From: Klebsiella oxytoca
GTDB taxonomy: Bacteria; Pseudomonadota; Gammaproteobacteria; Enterobacterales; Enterobacteriaceae
DNA length: 64,000 nucleotides
Direction: 5' to 3'
Assembly: GCF_009707385.1 (NCBI RefSeq)
Contig: NZ_CP046115.1
Span: 3,906,001 to 3,970,000 of the forward strand
Position numbers and translations under genes: made by a program
Shown here: positions 56,917 to 64,000 of the stretch, one piece after another
Layout of the letters: every line of letters begins with the position of its first letter
How positions within the stretch are numbered: position 1 is the stretch's first letter
The notes under the pieces: model-generated
What the model saw: only the letters and a program-made list of their open reading frames with translations
Database searches by the model: none
Told to the model about the DNA's origin: nothing

Positions 56917-58161
56917 ATGAATACACCTGCAAAATTACTCGCTGCACCGCGCTTTGTCACTCTTACCGCCGGATGCAATCAGCTTATTAACTGGGGAATA
57001 TCGTTTTATATGCCCGGTACTTTCGCCAGGTCTATCGCTCAGGAAACCGACTGGGCCATAGCCGAAATCTACTTAGGTCTTACTCTTGCTATGTTCATGA
57101 TGGCGATTATCTCCCCGTTTGTCGCCAGGCTACTGGCCCGCTTTGGCGGCCAACGGGTCGTCGTGACCGGTACCCTGATGATTTCAGCAGGCTGTCTGAT
57201 AATGGCTTACGTCCATAGCCTGACGGGCTGGTACGCCGCCTGGCTCCTGACCGGTGTCGGTATGAGGCTGGCGCTTTACGACGCGCTTTTCGCCGCGCTG
57301 GTAAATATCTATGGACAGCGCGCCAGGTTATCCATCTCGCGCGTGACTCTGGCCGGAGGATTGGCCTCGGCTCTGTTCTGGCCGCTTGGCGCATGGTTAC
57401 TGACGCAGACGGACTGGCGGCACGCTCTCCTGATGTATGCCCTGTTCGGCGTGCTTAGCGCTACGCTGCTATGGGGAATGCCGAATACCAAATTACCGTT
57501 GCCGATAAGGGTGAAAAAAAGCCAGCGGCTTTCAAAGCACGATCGACGTCCGGCTCTGCTTTACGCATCGTTAATTGCGCTGATTACCTTCGTCTCAAAC
57601 GGCACGTCGACGCATCTTCCGGAGTTTATCGCCAGCTTCGGGCTGCCTGTCGCAGTGGGGATGCTGTGGGGAATTGGGCAAACGGGCGCTCGTTTTCTCG
57701 AAGTCGTGTCGGGTTCCATACTAACGCCGCTGAAGCTAACGATATTGACGACCTTTTTGATGCCTCTCTGCTTCGTCGTTGGTCTGAGTGGGCCTTATCT
57801 CTCCTGGTGCGCAGGAGCATTTGTATTAGGCTACGGCGCGATCAATGGCCTGACAACCGTATTTAAAGCCACTCTACCGCTGCAGCTTTTTGCCGCCGAG
57901 GATTATGCCCAGCGGACCGGTGTTCTTTTGATTCCCGCCCAGCTTCTGGCCGCCATATCGCCGTTTGCCTACGCATGGATGAATCATTATCTTGGGATGT
58001 CAGGCAGCTTAGCGGTCTCTGCCGCTCTGGCGCTGCTGGTGACAGGGTTAGCAATAATGATTGCTATCAATCAATACAGAGTAACAGCGGCCGCCCGGCA
58101 AAATGAATTGATAGAAAATGACGCCAATAACCCAGAGACTCTAACTCAACCACAGGATTAG
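56917..58161 (+). CDS. MFS transporter of unknown substrate
   Basis: A 414-residue major facilitator protein with about 12 TM segments. The conserved loop 2-3 pattern appears as RLLARFGGQRVVVTG, and a central loop around residue 195-215 (KKSQRLSKHDRRPA) separates the two halves. C-terminal tail is polar. It is paired with a divergent LysR gene and is likely induced by its substrate. I cannot name the substrate; the family includes many uncharacterised proteins. Confidence 0.88.
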   Translation: MNTPAKLLAAPRFVTLTAGCNQLINWGISFYMPGTFARSIAQETDWAIAEIYLGLTLAMFMMAIISPFVARLLARFGGQRVVVTGTLMISAGCLIMAYVHSLTGWYAAWLLTGVGMRLALYDALFAALVNIYGQRARLSISRVTLAGGLASALFWPLGAWLLTQTDWRHALLMYALFGVLSATLLWGMPNTKLPLPIRVKKSQRLSKHDRRPALLYASLIALITFVSNGTSTHLPEFIASFGLPVAVGMLWGIGQTGARFLEVVSGSILTPLKLTILTTFLMPLCFVVGLSGPYLSWCAGAFVLGYGAINGLTTVFKATLPLQLFAAEDYAQRTGVLLIPAQLLAAISPFAYAWMNHYLGMSGSLAVSAALALLVTGLAIMIAINQYRVTAAARQNELIENDANNPETLTQPQD

Positions 58162-58591
58162 AATTCCCTATTAAGTCCCCTCTGTCATACCTATTAAAAA
58201 TGGTCAAAGTGGAGCAATCAATACAGATAAAAAATTAGCAAAATAAAATTAGTCAATATTCAAGATTATTTTAAACGTTAAGATAAAGATACTCTATATT
58301 TGCTCTACTAAAAAATCTAAAACTAATCTCTCAGCAGATAAAAAATCACTCAGACAGACGCAGGAAAATAAAAAAACGATGTTACATATAGTAAATAAAT
58401 CTGATTTTATTGCAGGAAATCACTCCATAAATTATTCATTGCCATCAAAAACCAATTATTATCAATAAGTTACTGTTAAGCAACAAACAACCCTCCCGGT
58501 TAGCTCAATGTGCTTGCCTGTAAACCTGTAGTACATATATTTCTTTTTTGATACTTTACGCCCATTAGTAATTTGGTCCATGGAGGACACC
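58162..58591. other. AT-rich gap before the accessory module
   Basis: About 430 bp between the MFS gene and the lipoprotein, strongly A+T-rich, with no gene that I can support. A -10-like tatact/gatact motif near 58550 could serve the lipoprotein gene. The composition suggests horizontally acquired, H-NS-bound DNA (inference). Confidence 0.5.
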
Positions 58592-58969
58592 TTGAAGAAG
58601 CTTCCAGTCATTATAATTGCGCTATCAGTACTCTTTTTACAGGGGTGCGCTAAACCAATTAAAAAAAGCCCCGAAAAACTGAGCGAGCAACCACCAAAAA
58701 TGTTGAAATTTCAACGTTGCATCACTGATGCGAAAACCTTATCCCAATTGGATAATAAATATGAGAAAAGCACAAAAGAATTATATACGTTAGTTAATAA
58801 TGCAAAATTTTATGCTTCTATTGCTGATGAGTCGTCTACCAACGTGAGTTCAACAATAACGCCTTTCTTTGATTATAAATTAAATGAAATATGTAACAAT
58901 ATATCTCTTATGTTAATTGAAGAATTTCAAAAGAACACTATTAATTCTATCAGCAAAGCCAAGAGCTAG
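58592..58969 (+). CDS. Small putative outer-membrane lipoprotein
   Basis: A 125-residue lipoprotein starting at TTG 58592: signal LKKLPVIIIALSVLFLQGC with lipobox LQGC (Cys19) and Ala at +2, which predicts outer-membrane sorting. The SD ggagg (58582-58586) is 5 bases before the TTG, better placed than an ATG at 58580 that would precede it. The mature part is Lys/Ser-rich, with an amphipathic helical stretch (KCLNEKISKE-type) and two further Cys (CITD, CNNI). I recognise no family. It is followed after 22 bp by the coiled-coil gene, so the two probably form an operon. Confidence 0.75.
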   Translation: MKKLPVIIIALSVLFLQGCAKPIKKSPEKLSEQPPKMLKFQRCITDAKTLSQLDNKYEKSTKELYTLVNNAKFYASIADESSTNVSSTITPFFDYKLNEICNNISLMLIEEFQKNTINSISKAKS

Positions 58970-58991
58970 AAACAAGGATGTTTGATTTCAT

Positions 58992-60560
58992 ATGAGAAGA
59001 TTGAATAAACTAACAATCGTTTCATTATTAGTATTCATTGCTCTGAATAAAACAGCATCAGCTGAAGATAGTGAATTCATTAATGCGATTAAAAACCTCA
59101 ACTTACAAACTATTGATACTAATGAAAATTCAGAATCAGCAGATAACAGATCGCAGAGTATTAATAGTGAAACCAGCATCAATGATAAGTTAGAACAAAA
59201 AAATAAAAAGCTTCAAATGAAGTATGAAAAATTATTGGGTTCGTACAATGAGATAAAATTAAAAGGCGACTCTGGTAATGCAGAATCCCAAAAATCAACC
59301 CTCTCCGCGCTCTCTAAAGAAAAAGACAAACTTAACGCCGAAAATATCGCGTTACGCAAACAGCTGGCTGATGCCACTTCCACACTTTCCGCGCTGCAGA
59401 AGCAAGGAGAGCAGTCCCTCACCAGTCAGAAGAAAGAGCTGAACTCTCTGGGGAAGGAAAACGCCCGCCTGCTCAACGAATCTGAAGCCACGCGCAAACA
59501 GCTTGCCGAGGCCACTGCGCAGCTCGCCGCCCTGCGTCAGCAAAATGAACTCTCCGTCGCCAGCCAGAAGAAAGAGCTGAACGCTCTGGGCCAGGAAAAC
59601 GCCCGCCTGCTCAGCGAATCTGACGCCACGCGCAAACAGCTTGCCGAGGCCACTGCGCAGCTCGCCGCCCTGCGTGAGCAAAATGAACTCTCCGTCGCCA
59701 GCCAGAAGAAAGAGCTGAACGCTCTGGGCCAGGAAAACGCCCGCCTGCTCAGCGAATCTGACGCCACGCGCAAGCAGCTGGCTGAAGCCACTGCGCAGCT
59801 TGCCACCCTGCGTCAGCAAAATGAACTCTCCGTCGCCAGCCAGAAGAAAGAGCTGAACGCTCTGGGCCAGGAAAACGCCCGCCTGCTCAGCGAATCTGAC
59901 GCCACGCGCAAACAGCTGACCGAAGCCACTACTAAGTTGGCCAAAATGGAGAATGATTCACAAAAATCAGCTACTTTAAAAACCAAATTGTTAAAAACTA
60001 CTGAAGGCAAAAACTCCTATTCATTAGGTGTTTTTTATTATGATAAGATCAACGCTGAATTTGAAAAAATCACTAAAAACAACATTAAGCTTACTCCTTC
60101 GTTGATGATCGATGGTATGAATGATGCCTTCAATAAATCACTTAAAATCAAAAAAGCGGAGATAATGGAAAATGTAGTCAAAATTGATCGAATCGTGCAA
60201 AGTATTAATAGCGACTACGCTAAAAAGATCCTAAAGATAATTAACAAGAAAAAATATGAAGTACTTGCGAATGGTTCATTTTTAGTTACGGACAAATCGA
60301 CGTCAAAGAAATATGGTGAGAATGAGATAGTAACTTTTGATATGCTGGAGAAAAACCTGAACGGCAAGCCAATACTTAACACCATGAATACTAAGGTTAA
60401 CTTTAATCAAATTCATGACCCGTTGCTTAGAAAAGTCGTTTCAGAGGGTGGTAAAGGCGGTGCAATGACGCTGTATGGCAAGGCGGATATCTTATATAAA
60501 ACTATACCAGACAACGTTTCTGCGGAAAGTCTTGTATCTATAACCTTTATGTTAAAGTAG
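58992..60560 (+). CDS. Secreted coiled-coil repeat protein with degenerate FKBP-like C-terminus
   Basis: A 522-residue protein with a signal peptide (LTIVSLLVFIALNKTASA, cleavage before EDSEF). Residues about 60-325 are predicted coiled coil. Residues 146 to about 316 hold near-identical 46-residue units (QKKELNALGQENARLLSESD plus ATRKQLAEATAQLAAL). Residues about 338-430 resemble an FKBP N-terminal domain (NSYSLGVFYYDKI, LTPSLMIDGMNDAFN), and about 431-522 an FKBP fold (GENEIVTFDMLEKNLNGKPI ... LVSITFMLK). The isomerase residues FD and W are replaced, so I expect no catalysis. It has AT-rich ends and a GC-rich repeat core. Probably periplasmic; function unknown. Confidence 0.8.
   Translation: MRRLNKLTIVSLLVFIALNKTASAEDSEFINAIKNLNLQTIDTNENSESADNRSQSINSETSINDKLEQKNKKLQMKYEKLLGSYNEIKLKGDSGNAESQKSTLSALSKEKDKLNAENIALRKQLADATSTLSALQKQGEQSLTSQKKELNSLGKENARLLNESEATRKQLAEATAQLAALRQQNELSVASQKKELNALGQENARLLSESDATRKQLAEATAQLAALREQNELSVASQKKELNALGQENARLLSESDATRKQLAEATAQLATLRQQNELSVASQKKELNALGQENARLLSESDATRKQLTEATTKLAKMENDSQKSATLKTKLLKTTEGKNSYSLGVFYYDKINAEFEKITKNNIKLTPSLMIDGMNDAFNKSLKIKKAEIMENVVKIDRIVQSINSDYAKKILKIINKKKYEVLANGSFLVTDKSTSKKYGENEIVTFDMLEKNLNGKPILNTMNTKVNFNQIHDPLLRKVVSEGGKGGAMTLYGKADILYKTIPDNVSAESLVSITFMLK
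59427..59930 (+). repeat. 138-bp tandem repeat array (46-residue coiled-coil units)
   Basis: Units begin with cagaagaaagagctgaac at 59427, 59565, 59703 and 59841, exactly 138 bp apart; the last is partial (about 90 bp). Units 2 and 3 are nearly identical, indicating recent duplication or gene conversion. A degenerate unit may precede the first. The repeats are GC-rich, whereas gene ends and flanks are AT-rich. Confidence 0.9.
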
Positions 60561-60648
60561 AGAATACATACAGGAAATTATCAGTAAAAGCATCCTGCAT
60601 ATTTATAATATGGTGGTATGCATGTTTCCTGTTGTTGAATATCACAAG

Positions 60649-60688
60649 CGGCTGTGGTGGCATATCCTTATCCCCTGCCAGCCGTTTT
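60649..60688 (+). terminator. Possible terminator after the coiled-coil gene
   Basis: cggctg (60649-60654) pairs with cagccg (60679-60684), followed by tttta. The inner part pairs poorly, so this is a weak candidate. The rest of 60561-60771 shows no gene. Confidence 0.35.
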
Positions 60689-60771
60689 ATCAACCTCCCT
60701 TCTCTGCCATAATTAATTATCGCACCAGATAAACCAATAACACTTAGCGGCTATTTTCACTATCGACTACA

Positions 60772-61251
60772 TCAGTGCTTTATACAAAAAAATATCGGCA
60801 TATTACCACTTGTAATAACATAATTATCGTTTAAAGGATAAAGGTAAAAAAAGGTACTAACCCCTTCTTTTATTAATACATCAGCAAGAAAATTACTCAG
60901 CACTTTCGAATGATTTAAGCTTTCCGGTAAAATTGACACTTGTTGTGAAGTAAAGTTATAGGCGAAATTATTCCTTGCAACTTCAAAGTGATTTCTAAGC
61001 TTGAAAAAATACACATTTGCATTGCCATCAGTAATACGGCCATCCATCATTATAGTACCGTACCTGCCATTAATAACAAGGCTGCTTTTAGAAACCAGAA
61101 GCTTACCAGATTTTCTTGCCGAATATGTAGCATCACAGCGAAAATGAGTGTTTTTGTAGCTGACATAATAAAACATCAATACTGGAACAGTAATTGATAT
61201 CAAAACAGTAACTAAGATTATAAGTCTACTATTTTTAAAATACATTTTCAT
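60772..61251 (-). CDS. FidL-like membrane protein
   Basis: A 159-residue protein with one N-terminal TM helix (LIILVTVLISITVPVLMFYY) and a periplasmic domain starting NTHFRCDATYSARK, resembling the FidL-like family (Salmonella SPI-3 FidL). It overlaps the 3' end of the preceding ToxR-like regulator by 17 bases. In SPI-3, fidL follows the CadC/ToxR-like regulator gene marT in the same arrangement. By analogy with ToxS it may modulate the partner, but no function is proven. AT-rich codon use. Confidence 0.7.
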   Translation of the reverse strand: MKMYFKNSRLIILVTVLISITVPVLMFYYVSYKNTHFRCDATYSARKSGKLLVSKSSLVINGRYGTIMMDGRITDGNANVYFFKLRNHFEVARNNFAYNFTSQQVSILPESLNHSKVLSNFLADVLIKEGVSTFFYLYPLNDNYVITSGNMPIFFCIKH

Positions 61252-62029
61252 CTCTCAAGTCCATGACTTCACATTTTTTTGGTCTCAAATTTATAGGTCT
61301 ATCGCACGAAATAACTGAGATATTAGGTGAATAGGGGAGTATGGTTACATAAACAAAATATTGATGCTGACATTTCAAAAATGATAAATTCAAAATAGAT
61401 AATCGGTCTTTACCATTTTTGGGAGATAGAAAAAACTTACACGCACTCCCGGGCATAAAAACTGGACCGCTGTAGTTTTCAAAGAATTTGTAGCCTCTTG
61501 TTTGTGTACCATATATTTCAAAAGTTAACGTACCTGACATCATCATGATAATTAGTATAAATGCCATTGTTGTAAAGTGAGTTAGCTTTCTGTTTTGGTA
61601 AATCACGGGTTCAACAGTTTGATCTGATGTATCTATTCCATTCTCATTTTTTTCACAGTCCCCCTCGTTAAAATCCTGCATTTTAGCCAACACGGTTACC
61701 GTTGGGTTTAGTCGAAAGCCTTTCCTGGTTTCAGTCAGAATATAATCAGTCTCATTTTCACATATCTCTCTGAATGCCCGACGAATGACAGATATGCTCT
61801 GATACAAAGTATTAGGTGATGGGATAAACCCACTCCCTTGCCAGGCATACTCATAGAAATCATTTTGTAGCACCAGGTCTTTTCTGGAGAGCAATAACTC
61901 CAGGCAGCGAGCTGAAGGGCCTGTTAATTGCACTTTTTTACTTCTATCAGACACGCACGACAAAAGATTCCGTTCTGGCCAAAATATGACTGAATCATTT
62001 AATACATAAATATTCTGCATACAAAACAT
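61235..62029 (-). CDS. ToxR/MarT-like membrane-anchored transcriptional regulator
   Basis: 264 residues: an N-terminal winged-helix domain (residues about 5-105; LTGPSARCLELLLSRKDLVL, LYQSISVIRRAFREICENE, ETRKGFRLNPTV) of the OmpR/CadC type without a receiver domain, a cytoplasmic linker, one TM helix (TMAFILIIMMMSGTLTFEIYG) near residue 170, and a small periplasmic domain with Cys residues (GSACKFFLS, KCQHQYF, SCDRPI). ATG 62029 has SD gagg 5 bp upstream; a GTG at 62035 and an ATG at 62020 are alternatives. It is followed by a FidL-like gene, overlapping. It probably senses periplasmic conditions and controls nearby genes. Confidence 0.82.
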   Translation of the reverse strand: MFCMQNIYVLNDSVIFWPERNLLSCVSDRSKKVQLTGPSARCLELLLSRKDLVLQNDFYEYAWQGSGFIPSPNTLYQSISVIRRAFREICENETDYILTETRKGFRLNPTVTVLAKMQDFNEGDCEKNENGIDTSDQTVEPVIYQNRKLTHFTTMAFILIIMMMSGTLTFEIYGTQTRGYKFFENYSGPVFMPGSACKFFLSPKNGKDRLSILNLSFLKCQHQYFVYVTILPYSPNISVISCDRPINLRPKKCEVMDLRDENVF

Positions 62030-62540
62030 CAACACCTCAAAATCAAATTAATAACAATAAAGTTACATGTTAAGTAACAACCATTAGGATACATATAAAA
62101 AATCTTCTATAAGATTATATAAGACAAAACAAAAACCTTCACAATTTTCATTAACCAATTGATTTTAATGAAAATTAAAACAATAGCGAATTCATTTCAA
62201 TTTCATAACATATTTTTTATGCTTATGAATAAGTTCCTCAAATGAAAATTCTTAAATTTATCAAACAACTCCCTATAATTGATTCATACCAAAAACGTAA
62301 TATAAAAATATCTTACGCAGAGTATTAACTACTTAGTATCTAAAGATGGGTGAATTTAATGAGGAGAAACGCAATAAAAGGATTAAAAAACCAAAAAAAC
62401 AATAAAAATTAGATTTTAAAACTACTTATAAATCAATAAATAGCTATTAATCGTCACATATATGTCTGATTGATTAATCATTTTTAACATATAGAATGCC
62501 ACAACATGGATAAGGCAAAGGTAAAAGGAGATCATTTTCA
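62030..62540. other. AT-rich divergent regulatory gap
   Basis: About 510 bp between two divergent regulator genes, very A+T-rich, with no supported gene. A 10-bp palindrome tgattaatca lies at 62471-62480, 61 bp before the winged-helix gene. It is likely the shared promoter and regulator-binding region. Confidence 0.45.
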
Positions 62541-62984
62541 ATGACGCAGAACCCAAGAAAATTAGATCATCACCTTTATGGATATTGCATTGGGGATAAT
62601 CTTGAGTTCAGGATATCACCGGCCTTATTAGTAAATACATTGACAGGAATCAGCATTCGTCTGCGGCCAACAATGGCGCGACTGCTTTCTTATATCTTAA
62701 ATCACTCAGATGAAAGAATGATTGAAGATGAGAAAATAATGCGGGATGTTTTTGAGAATTATGGTCTCAAGTGTAACAAGCAGCGACTATGGCAGGCCAT
62801 TAATTCGCTAAAAAAAACTCTGGCAAAGTGTGGTTTCAGCCGCTTTATTATCTACAGAGTAAATAACAATGGTTTTTTAATTTCCAATGTGAGAATTGGA
62901 ATGTTGTTATGTTACGCCCTTAACAGCTCTCACCTTGAGATGTTTGAGACTGCTAAGCCAGAAAAACATGACCAGCAAATATAG
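62541..62984 (+). CDS. Winged-helix DNA-binding protein without a membrane anchor
   Basis: A 147-residue protein with a CadC/ToxR-type wHTH domain (residues about 25-110; ISIRLRPTMARLLSYILNHS, KCNKQRLWQAINSLKKTLAKC, IYRVNNNGFLISN) but no TM helix and a short tail. SD aaggag precedes the ATG. It lies 184 bp upstream of the fimbrial subunit gene in the same direction and is a strong candidate regulator of that operon. AT-rich codon use like the other regulators here. Confidence 0.75.
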   Translation: MTQNPRKLDHHLYGYCIGDNLEFRISPALLVNTLTGISIRLRPTMARLLSYILNHSDERMIEDEKIMRDVFENYGLKCNKQRLWQAINSLKKTLAKCGFSRFIIYRVNNNGFLISNVRIGMLLCYALNSSHLEMFETAKPEKHDQQI

Positions 62985-63035
62985 ATACATGTAAGTTAAA
63001 CAGCGGCAAATTATATAACCGAATTATTTTTTAAA

Positions 63036-63051
63036 GTTGTGTTTACACAAC
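63036..63051. promoter_or_regulatory. Inverted repeat upstream of the fimbrial operon
   Basis: gttgtg-ttta-cacaac is a perfect 6+6 bp dyad in the leader, 118 bp before the fimbrial ATG. It may be an operator or a weak terminator of the wHTH gene. A second dyad, tctctc-c-gagaga, lies near 63080. Confidence 0.4.
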
Positions 63052-63168
63052 CTGATAAAGCTATTTTTCTAAACTTCTCTCCGAGAGAGACACAGTACTC
63101 ATGATGCTGTGACGATGTATTTCGTCGAAATCATGTAAAACCAAAAGTAATCAATTAAGGATAATTTT

Positions 63169-63729
63169 ATGAAAAAGTCAGTCGTCAGTACCTCAATCTT
63201 TGCTGTTTTCGCTCTCGCAGCATTTTCCGCCCAGGCAGCTTCCACCGGGACCATTACTTTTAACGGTGAGCTGACCGACACCACCTGCGAAGTGGATATT
63301 AACGGCCAGGGCTCCGACGCGACCGTCATCCTGCCGACCGTCGGCGTGAACCAGCTGACCGCCAGCGGCGACACCACCGGTCGTACTTCCTTCAACATGA
63401 ACATCTCCGACTGCGTGATTGGCACCGAAGGCGGCCACTCTAAAGTCTCGGCGTTCTTCCAGCCGGGTAACACCGTTGATCTGAGCACCGGTCGTCTGAA
63501 AAACGTCGGCGGCAGCGCCACTAACGTTGACCTGCGCCTGCTGGATGCTTCCAACAGCTATGCGCCGATTAACGTAGGTAACACCGATCAGGTTGATGGC
63601 ATGGCCTATGTCGACATCAACGCTGACGGTACCGCACTGCTGCCGTACGCCGTTGAATACTTCGCGAATGCGCAGACCACCCCGGGCACCGTCACCAGCA
63701 GCGTCGTTTATAACCTGCAGTACAAGTAA
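63169..63729 (+). CDS. Type 1-like fimbrial major subunit
   Basis: 186-residue pilin with a signal peptide (MKKSVVSTSIFAVFALAAFS, cleavage after AQA). Mature features are typical of FimA/chaperone-usher pilins: GTITFNGELTDTTCEVDING, second Cys in NISDCVIG (disulphide), and the C-terminal beta-zipper pattern ending SSVVYNLQYK with the penultimate Tyr. The chaperone gene follows. Codon use and GC are host-like, unlike the AT-rich regulators just upstream. The exact fimbrial type is not clear. Confidence 0.92.
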   Translation: MKKSVVSTSIFAVFALAAFSAQAASTGTITFNGELTDTTCEVDINGQGSDATVILPTVGVNQLTASGDTTGRTSFNMNISDCVIGTEGGHSKVSAFFQPGNTVDLSTGRLKNVGGSATNVDLRLLDASNSYAPINVGNTDQVDGMAYVDINADGTALLPYAVEYFANAQTTPGTVTSSVVYNLQYK

Positions 63730-63739
63730 TAAGGAATTT

Positions 63740-63760
63740 CAGGGGGAGTCGCTCCCCCTG
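63740..63760 (+). terminator. Stem-loop between major pilin and chaperone genes
   Basis: caggggga g on the left (63740-63748) pairs with ctccccctg (63752-63760): a 9-bp perfect stem with a 3-base loop, 11 bp after the pilin stop. No T-run follows, so it is probably a partial terminator or RNase barrier that makes pilin mRNA more abundant than chaperone/usher mRNA. Confidence 0.75.
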
Positions 63761-63776
63761 TCACACAGGAGCCCCC

Positions 63777-64000
63777 ATGATACCGTTATCCCTTATCCGG
63801 ACATTCGCTAAAGTCACCTGTATTGCCGCTGCCGCCGTGGCCTGGTCATCCCACGCCAGCGTTATCGTCAACGGGACCCGCGTCATTTACAACGGAAATG
63901 AAAAGGAAGTGTCTGTCCGGCTTACGAATACCGGCACGCTCCCGGTTCTGGTACAAAGCTGGATTGATGAGGGCGATATGAACGCCAGGCCGGATCGTAT
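63777..64000 (+). CDS. Fimbrial periplasmic chaperone (partial, 3' end outside window)
   Basis: The first 74 codons encode a signal peptide (LIRTFAKVTCIAAAAVAWSS, cleavage after SHA) and the start of a PapD/FimC-type chaperone: SVIVNGTRVIYNGNEKEVSV, then LTNTGTLPVLVQSWIDEG. The conserved early Arg (TRVIY) that anchors the subunit C-terminus is present. SD acaggag is 7 bp before ATG. The window ends here; an usher and adhesin should follow. Confidence 0.9.
   Translation, partial: MIPLSLIRTFAKVTCIAAAAVAWSSHASVIVNGTRVIYNGNEKEVSVRLTNTGTLPVLVQSWIDEGDMNARPDR

Follow-up and report, generated by a model that had tools for sequence, protein, structure and literature searches.

FkpA, the periplasmic FKBP-type isomerase and chaperone of E. 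coli, and Mip of Legionella share an architecture in which an FKBP_N dimerisation part is followed by an FKBP fold. The subject here is a pair of genes coding for a small lipoprotein and an exported protein with an FkpA-type domain, found in a stretch of 64,000 nucleotides (nt) of Klebsiella oxytoca (NZ_CP046115.1, positions 3906001-3970000 of a single-contig genome of 5.39 Mb), referred to as the window. The lipoprotein gene (58580-58969, forward strand) encodes 129 amino acids (aa), and directly 3′ of it lies the gene for the exported protein of 522 aa (58992-60560, forward strand). In this second protein, unlike FkpA and Mip, a long repeat rod precedes the domain, a lipoprotein gene accompanies the gene, and the isomerase pocket has been lost. 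A search of the open-licence literature found no paper describing a pair made of a lipoprotein and a repeat rod with an FkpA-type head. The FkpA/Mip family of the head is itself already known. We tentatively propose that the pair forms a lipoprotein-anchored periplasmic rod whose non-catalytic FkpA-type head aids the assembly of surface proteins.

The C-terminal domain of the rod protein (59961-60557, forward strand) consists of FKBP_N and a degenerate FKBP fold. A profile of the family matches E. coli FkpA with an E value of 4e-35 over 204 of 208 positions, and Mip with 1e-15. When 28 family members were searched against Pfam, FKBP_N was found in 26 and FKBP_C in six. The window rod protein alone gives no FKBP match in Pfam or NCBIfam, and a single-sequence search of the Protein Data Bank (PDB) with its domain returned one unrelated chain at E 0.046 and nothing else. 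Thus the term FKBP-like, applied to this protein in a preliminary description of the DNA, holds by way of the family and is not recovered from the window protein by itself. A structure model of the head domain (predicted local distance difference test, pLDDT, 88.2) has FkpA as its best Foldseek match (1.1e-10), and Mip is also matched. The best structural Z value, 11.5 over 115 residues, is that of the FKBP part with PDB entry 6h3i, an FKBP-type subunit of the type 9 translocon. The two are structurally alike but the secretion system is unrelated, and the type 9 translocon is not known to us to have a comparable repeat rod or lipoprotein partner. Judged by the order of FKBP_N and FKBP fold, the head is a homologue within the FkpA/Mip family.

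Asp37 and Trp59 of FKBP12 are residues of the isomerase pocket. At the equivalent positions of 79 family members Asp is never found (two have Glu) and Trp occurs once; Tyr82 is kept in 75. The window protein has Leu, Leu and Tyr at the equivalents of Asp37, Trp59 and Tyr82. By these residues the pocket is degenerate, and the head does not qualify as an isomerase of the FkpA/Mip kind. With the pocket lost, the head would retain the FkpA fold for binding or docking, and not for catalysis.

The N-terminus of the rod protein (58992-59063, forward strand) shows by eye a signal peptide, after which comes a conserved segment that is clade-specific among the N-termini of 69 family members. Residues 61-335 contain no Pro, Cys, Trp or Phe, a rod-like composition, and relatives of the protein have coiled-coil matches in Pfam; on both grounds the rod is probably helical and a coiled coil. 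Tandem repeats of 138 base pairs (bp), or 46 residues, occupy 59415-59930 (forward strand) in 3.7 copies, with 94% matches and a score of 906. The GC content of this tract is 0.61, and that of its flanks within the gene 0.34-0.36, as if the tract had a separate origin or had been separately homogenised. Lengths of the closest homologues listed (n = 109, from the best 120 of 380 displayed) fall into classes of 384 aa (26 proteins), 430 aa (46), 476 aa (33) and 522 aa (two), that is, in steps of 46 residues, with two outliers of 401 and 470 aa. The closest named relatives belong to the K. oxytoca group, strains of which carry homologues with a domain that is 93-94% identical. Across 69 pairs of lipoprotein and rod the length of the rod protein ranges from 301 to 1,845 residues. 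In databases the homologues go by names such as ‘hypothetical protein’, ‘TolA’ and ‘Chromosome partition protein Smc’.

The lipobox of the small lipoprotein is LQGC with Ala after the Cys, which by the lipobox sorting rule points to the outer membrane as its probable location. The lipid-bearing Cys23 and also Cys105 are invariant in 20 aligned lipoproteins, and Cys47 is present in at least 90%; conservation of Cys47 and Cys105 suggests a disulfide. A predicted model has three helices (pLDDT 79.3), and a PDB structure search with it gave no match at E ≤ 0.001. In Pfam and NCBIfam, any one family matches at most two of the 20 members. Lpp and OprI are likewise small helical lipoproteins, but the match to the corresponding NCBIfam family, Ala_zip_lipo, is far under the cut-off (15.4 bits, cut-off 43), and the conserved Cys pair and the partner protein are further differences. 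The lipoprotein gene of an E. coli plasmid (L036:10367-10867) is unannotated and has a long in-frame run of Asn-Thr dipeptides, a second kind of repeat in the pair.

Homologous lipoprotein-rod pairs recur across Enterobacteriaceae. The source genome itself holds a second pair and a third, more distant one at 978 kb, and all ten rod genes found in Klebsiella genomes are directly preceded by a lipoprotein gene. With 20 further loci from 392 genomes of the family, the lipoprotein gene is upstream in 26 of 30 rod loci. Two of the other four (L076 and L079) begin near a contig end; in L084, a 10-kb contig, the rod gene is cut, and in L078 it is broken. On E. coli plasmid pEC21Z048-116K an unannotated lipoprotein gene is present, and its 3′ end overlaps the start of the rod gene. 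A scan of genome contigs for the pair confirmed at least eight loci. In the search of the 392 genomes, the tally of 271 includes short open reading frames (ORFs) taken to be FkpA itself.

A lipoprotein profile, built from 20 rod-adjacent lipoproteins for which the pairing holds by construction, found matches in 109 of the 392 genomes. From the matches listed, 80 loci were chosen, as a rule a single one for each genome or site and away from the ends of contigs. The lipoprotein ORF was found at 77 of them, and at 46 of the 77 an FkpA-like gene is directly downstream. Distances among lipoproteins and among rod proteins co-vary over 69 pairs (Spearman 0.63; best of 1,000 permutations 0.19), and in 38 of these the nearest neighbour is common to both proteins; the co-variation is partly shared species history, yet several genomes hold more than one pair. 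The lipoprotein and rod genes are one conserved unit, which agrees with the proposal of the preliminary description that the lipoprotein and coiled-coil genes belong together. Two loci show other arrangements. In L206:10407-19901 the place of the rod gene after a lipoprotein relative is taken by an open frame longer than 3,165 residues, possibly another type of partner. On plasmid pBDA134-6 (rice), a cellulose (bcs) gene set directly adjoins the lipoprotein-rod pair (L034:13783-25692).

The neighbourhood of the pair was assayed in fetched stretches of about 10 kb on each side of a locus. Rod loci are those whose stretch contains an FkpA-like gene at any position; there are 53, the 46 in which the gene directly follows the lipoprotein being the strict pairs. 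An usher is found near the rod in 19 of the 53, with 2.0 expected, and 200,000 simulations never exceeded 11. The expectation comes from usher counts per genome (in one set, from at most 19 listed candidates) and not from random stretches, and a small number of sequences from the studied loci went into the profiles for ushers and chaperones. The strict pairs have an usher in 16 of 46 stretches. When loci were merged by shared flanking genes, 10 of 25 settings have an usher (nine by majority), where about one is expected at a mean chance of 0.039. Three loci (L225, L226 and L029) were known beforehand to be near an usher; without them the counts are 16 of 50 loci and 7 of 22 settings. Loci without a rod gene have an usher in 3 of 27 cases (0.96 expected). 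Thus linkage of the pair to usher operons is enriched and not constant.

Two Klebsiella plasmids carry the pair together with a fimbrial operon of the window type. The plasmid pair region has a match in 26 of 5,426 E. coli genomes, and in three of these the match spans at least 80% of it. In all six E. coli regions read, the rod gene comes after a K88-like fae operon, and in two of these a gene for an S6-family peptidase lies between. On two E. coli chromosomes (L096 and L098) the genes between the fae-like operon and the pair are an EAL-domain gene and an S6-family peptidase gene of the autotransporter type.

The anatomy of the pair is well supported. As to function, 58580-60560 would encode a two-protein envelope device. 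The lipoprotein would sit in the outer membrane and hold the N-terminal end of the exported protein, which would assemble into a long helical, probably coiled-coil rod with its length set by repeat number, ending in an FkpA-type dimer head. The head, binding or docking without catalysis, could thereby reach client surface proteins close to the outer membrane (fimbrial subunits, ushers, autotransporters), with a reach that would depend on the length of the rod. We infer the client role from the FkpA ancestry of the head together with the gene neighbourhood.

Several results weigh against this reading. FkpA superposes on the head model only as two separate parts, with a template modelling (TM) score of 0.41 and a root mean square deviation of about 19. 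A test for coiled-coil periodicity in the rod fell short of significance: the best period, 3.55, had a power of 60, and the 99% point of the shuffles was 72. An FkpA-like gene is not directly downstream at 31 of the 77 lipoprotein loci, so that the family of the lipoprotein extends beyond the pair. The source genome has another copy of the fimbrial operon, and this copy lacks the pair. Finally, 34 of the 53 rod loci have no usher in the stretch, nor have several conserved chromosomal sites, and assembly of surface appendages therefore cannot be the sole role. On this last count an obligate role of the pair as fimbrial partner is not supported. A dedicated accessory that serves chaperone-usher fimbriae only, for instance as a second periplasmic chaperone or usher scaffold, would account for the enrichment near ushers, for the two Klebsiella plasmids and for the fae operons of the E. 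coli regions, but it has against it the same loci without a nearby usher, where one further off in the genome might yet serve as partner, and the operon copy that lacks the pair. We regard this explanation as unlikely.

A somewhat better alternative, although still doubtful, is a structural tether or spacer, whereby the lipoprotein-held rod bridges or spaces the outer membrane relative to the cell wall or inner membrane, in the manner of Lpp or TolA, and the head is a dimerisation cap or contact with no chaperone activity. The rod-like composition of residues 61-335, the lipoprotein partner, the lost isomerase pocket, the many rod loci without ushers and the weak alanine-zipper lipoprotein match are all compatible with it. 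However, lengths of 301 to 1,845 residues suit no single periplasmic distance, neither an inner-membrane anchor nor a wall-linking end is seen, the FkpA fold is retained, and the enrichment near ushers is left unexplained. Phage spanins (Rz/Rz1) should also be considered. They comprise a membrane-anchored coiled coil and a nested or downstream lipoprotein in a lysis cassette, and a spanin-like or other mobile-element function, with a coiled coil and a small lipoprotein disrupting or guarding the envelope, would fit the presence of the pair on islands and plasmids and the match of 2 of 20 lipoproteins to Pfam LysC (Rz1-like; best 1.7e-5). But the gene order is reversed, with the lipoprotein gene upstream; the rod has a signal peptide and not a membrane anchor; spanins have nothing that corresponds to the FkpA head; no lysis cassette surrounds the window locus; and conserved chromosomal sites exist. 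A viral origin of the pair was rejected, since 41 pattern matches in viral contigs include no relatives. A function of the spanin kind is thus highly improbable.

Two of the remaining genes of the block resemble co-component systems. In Kinch et al. 2022 (PMC9214523), the MarT/FidL system activates the neighbouring adhesin gene misL (product MisL), and MarT/FidL, VtrA/VtrC and ToxR/ToxS have in common a winged-helix regulator with one membrane segment and an overlapping small membrane gene. The same layout is seen in the window. A ToxR-like membrane transcription regulator of 266 aa (61235-62035, reverse strand), with one membrane segment by eye, has a Pfam Trans_reg_C match above the cut-off (28.4 bits, cut-off 26.2). 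It overlaps by 17 nt a gene for a 159-aa membrane protein (60772-61251, reverse strand), which is a candidate periplasmic partner of the regulator. By eye, the periplasmic part of this protein carries a Cys close to either end, as co-component partners do in that paper (PMC9214523). The name FidL-like given there to the 159-aa protein is positional only, since the protein, unlike the partner in MarT/FidL-type systems, has no match in Pfam or NCBIfam. Its weak homologues occur in 6 of 60 other genomes, and the two that were read (L111 and L114) follow a ToxR-like gene.

A winged-helix (wHTH) gene (62541-62984, forward strand) scores 18.3 bits with Trans_reg_C, below the cut-off. It is a probable fimbrial regulator by its position directly before fimA, which is seen at this locus, on two Klebsiella plasmids and in the second fimbrial operon copy. 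Within the source genome, 4 of 7 ToxR-like matches are within 10 kb of an usher. The ToxR-like/membrane pair and the wHTH gene fit regulators of the fimbriae.

BLAST comparison of 109 loci, two of which are the window locus itself, found no homologue of the 159-aa gene at the other loci, one weak match of the wHTH gene (L186) and two of the ToxR-like gene (28-31%). Since the lipoprotein-rod pair and the regulators separate across loci, the control genes would go with the fimbriae, and the pair would be a separate cassette. A self-contained five-gene module, as first described, is therefore rejected; the independence of genes across genomes that the preliminary description had named as its refutation is what was found, for the pair relative to the regulators. 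Plasmid pKO190245_2 has a ToxR-like gene (24% identical), a wHTH gene (57%), a fim operon (FimA 82%) and a marginal small partner, with E 6e-4 to the 159-aa protein over an alignment of 17 residues only. Its gene order differs, with the lipoprotein-rod pair at the opposite end of the operon. In favour of the first description are the enrichment of ushers and the same gene types occurring with fim on this plasmid; the part of it that tied the pair to the regulators does not stand.

All five ORFs of the preliminary description are present at their positions, and they are AT-rich as it had said, with GC contents of 0.315-0.383 (gaps 0.24-0.31; LysR and MFS genes 0.54, fimA 0.57), the repeat tract of the rod gene being the exception. 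No RNA element was matched in an Rfam search of 58000-64000, and E. coli genomes have no near-DNA match to the block. The block is part of a fimbrial island, up to about 11.8 kb long, that separates the MFS gene from guaA; of this, 58162-64000 lies inside the window and the rest extends to about 69,999, which is position 16000 of L024. The gene order is lipoprotein, rod, 159-aa membrane gene, ToxR-like gene, wHTH gene, fimA, chaperone, usher, 232-aa protein, adhesin-like protein and second chaperone. The fimA-type major subunit gene is at 63169-63729 (forward strand; Pfam FimA 4.1e-13), and the periplasmic chaperone gene (63777-64000, forward strand) is cut by the window end, the usher and remaining operon genes lying beyond.

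At the same site in seven of seven relatives of the genus, BLAST with 11 island proteins gave no match, and the K. oxytoca genome G003 does not have the island at this site. Six of the seven have YfgG or YfgF, LysR, MFS and GuaA in that order; in the seventh (L124) GuaA adjoins YfgF, without LysR and MFS. At the right end five relatives were tested: homology resumes at L024 16000-16004 in two of them and at the stop of guaA in three. The left end is placed no more finely than the MFS stop. The second fimbrial operon of the source genome (L126:986-8414) has its own wHTH gene, and its identity to the island operon is 99.5% for fimA, 98% for the 232-aa protein, 95% for the second chaperone and 65% for the adhesin. 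The low value of the adhesin-like protein next to that of fimA hints at divergence or exchange of the tip. The source genome has 20 usher matches in its 5.39 Mb, the second highest ratio among seven Klebsiella compared (9 to 24 matches).

The lipoprotein-rod pair would, on the reading preferred here, travel with a fimbrial island in which control of the fimbriae falls to the ToxR-like/membrane pair and the wHTH gene. A wider form of this reading is more speculative and on present evidence rather unlikely: a widespread, unnamed envelope device in which a lipoprotein of the outer membrane tethers a repeat rod whose length can evolve, the FkpA-derived head is a non-catalytic client-binding lobe, adhesin and other surface systems each recruit their own copy, and repeat number tunes periplasmic reach even within one species group. 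The natural forms, with a near-identical head and length steps of 46 residues, make the importance of reach directly testable. If the proposal is true, the Enterobacteriaceae proteins that carry the database names given above would be parts of a paired envelope system whose basis is a disabled FkpA, and a housekeeping chaperone would have become an accessory of surface structures, anchored and variable in length.

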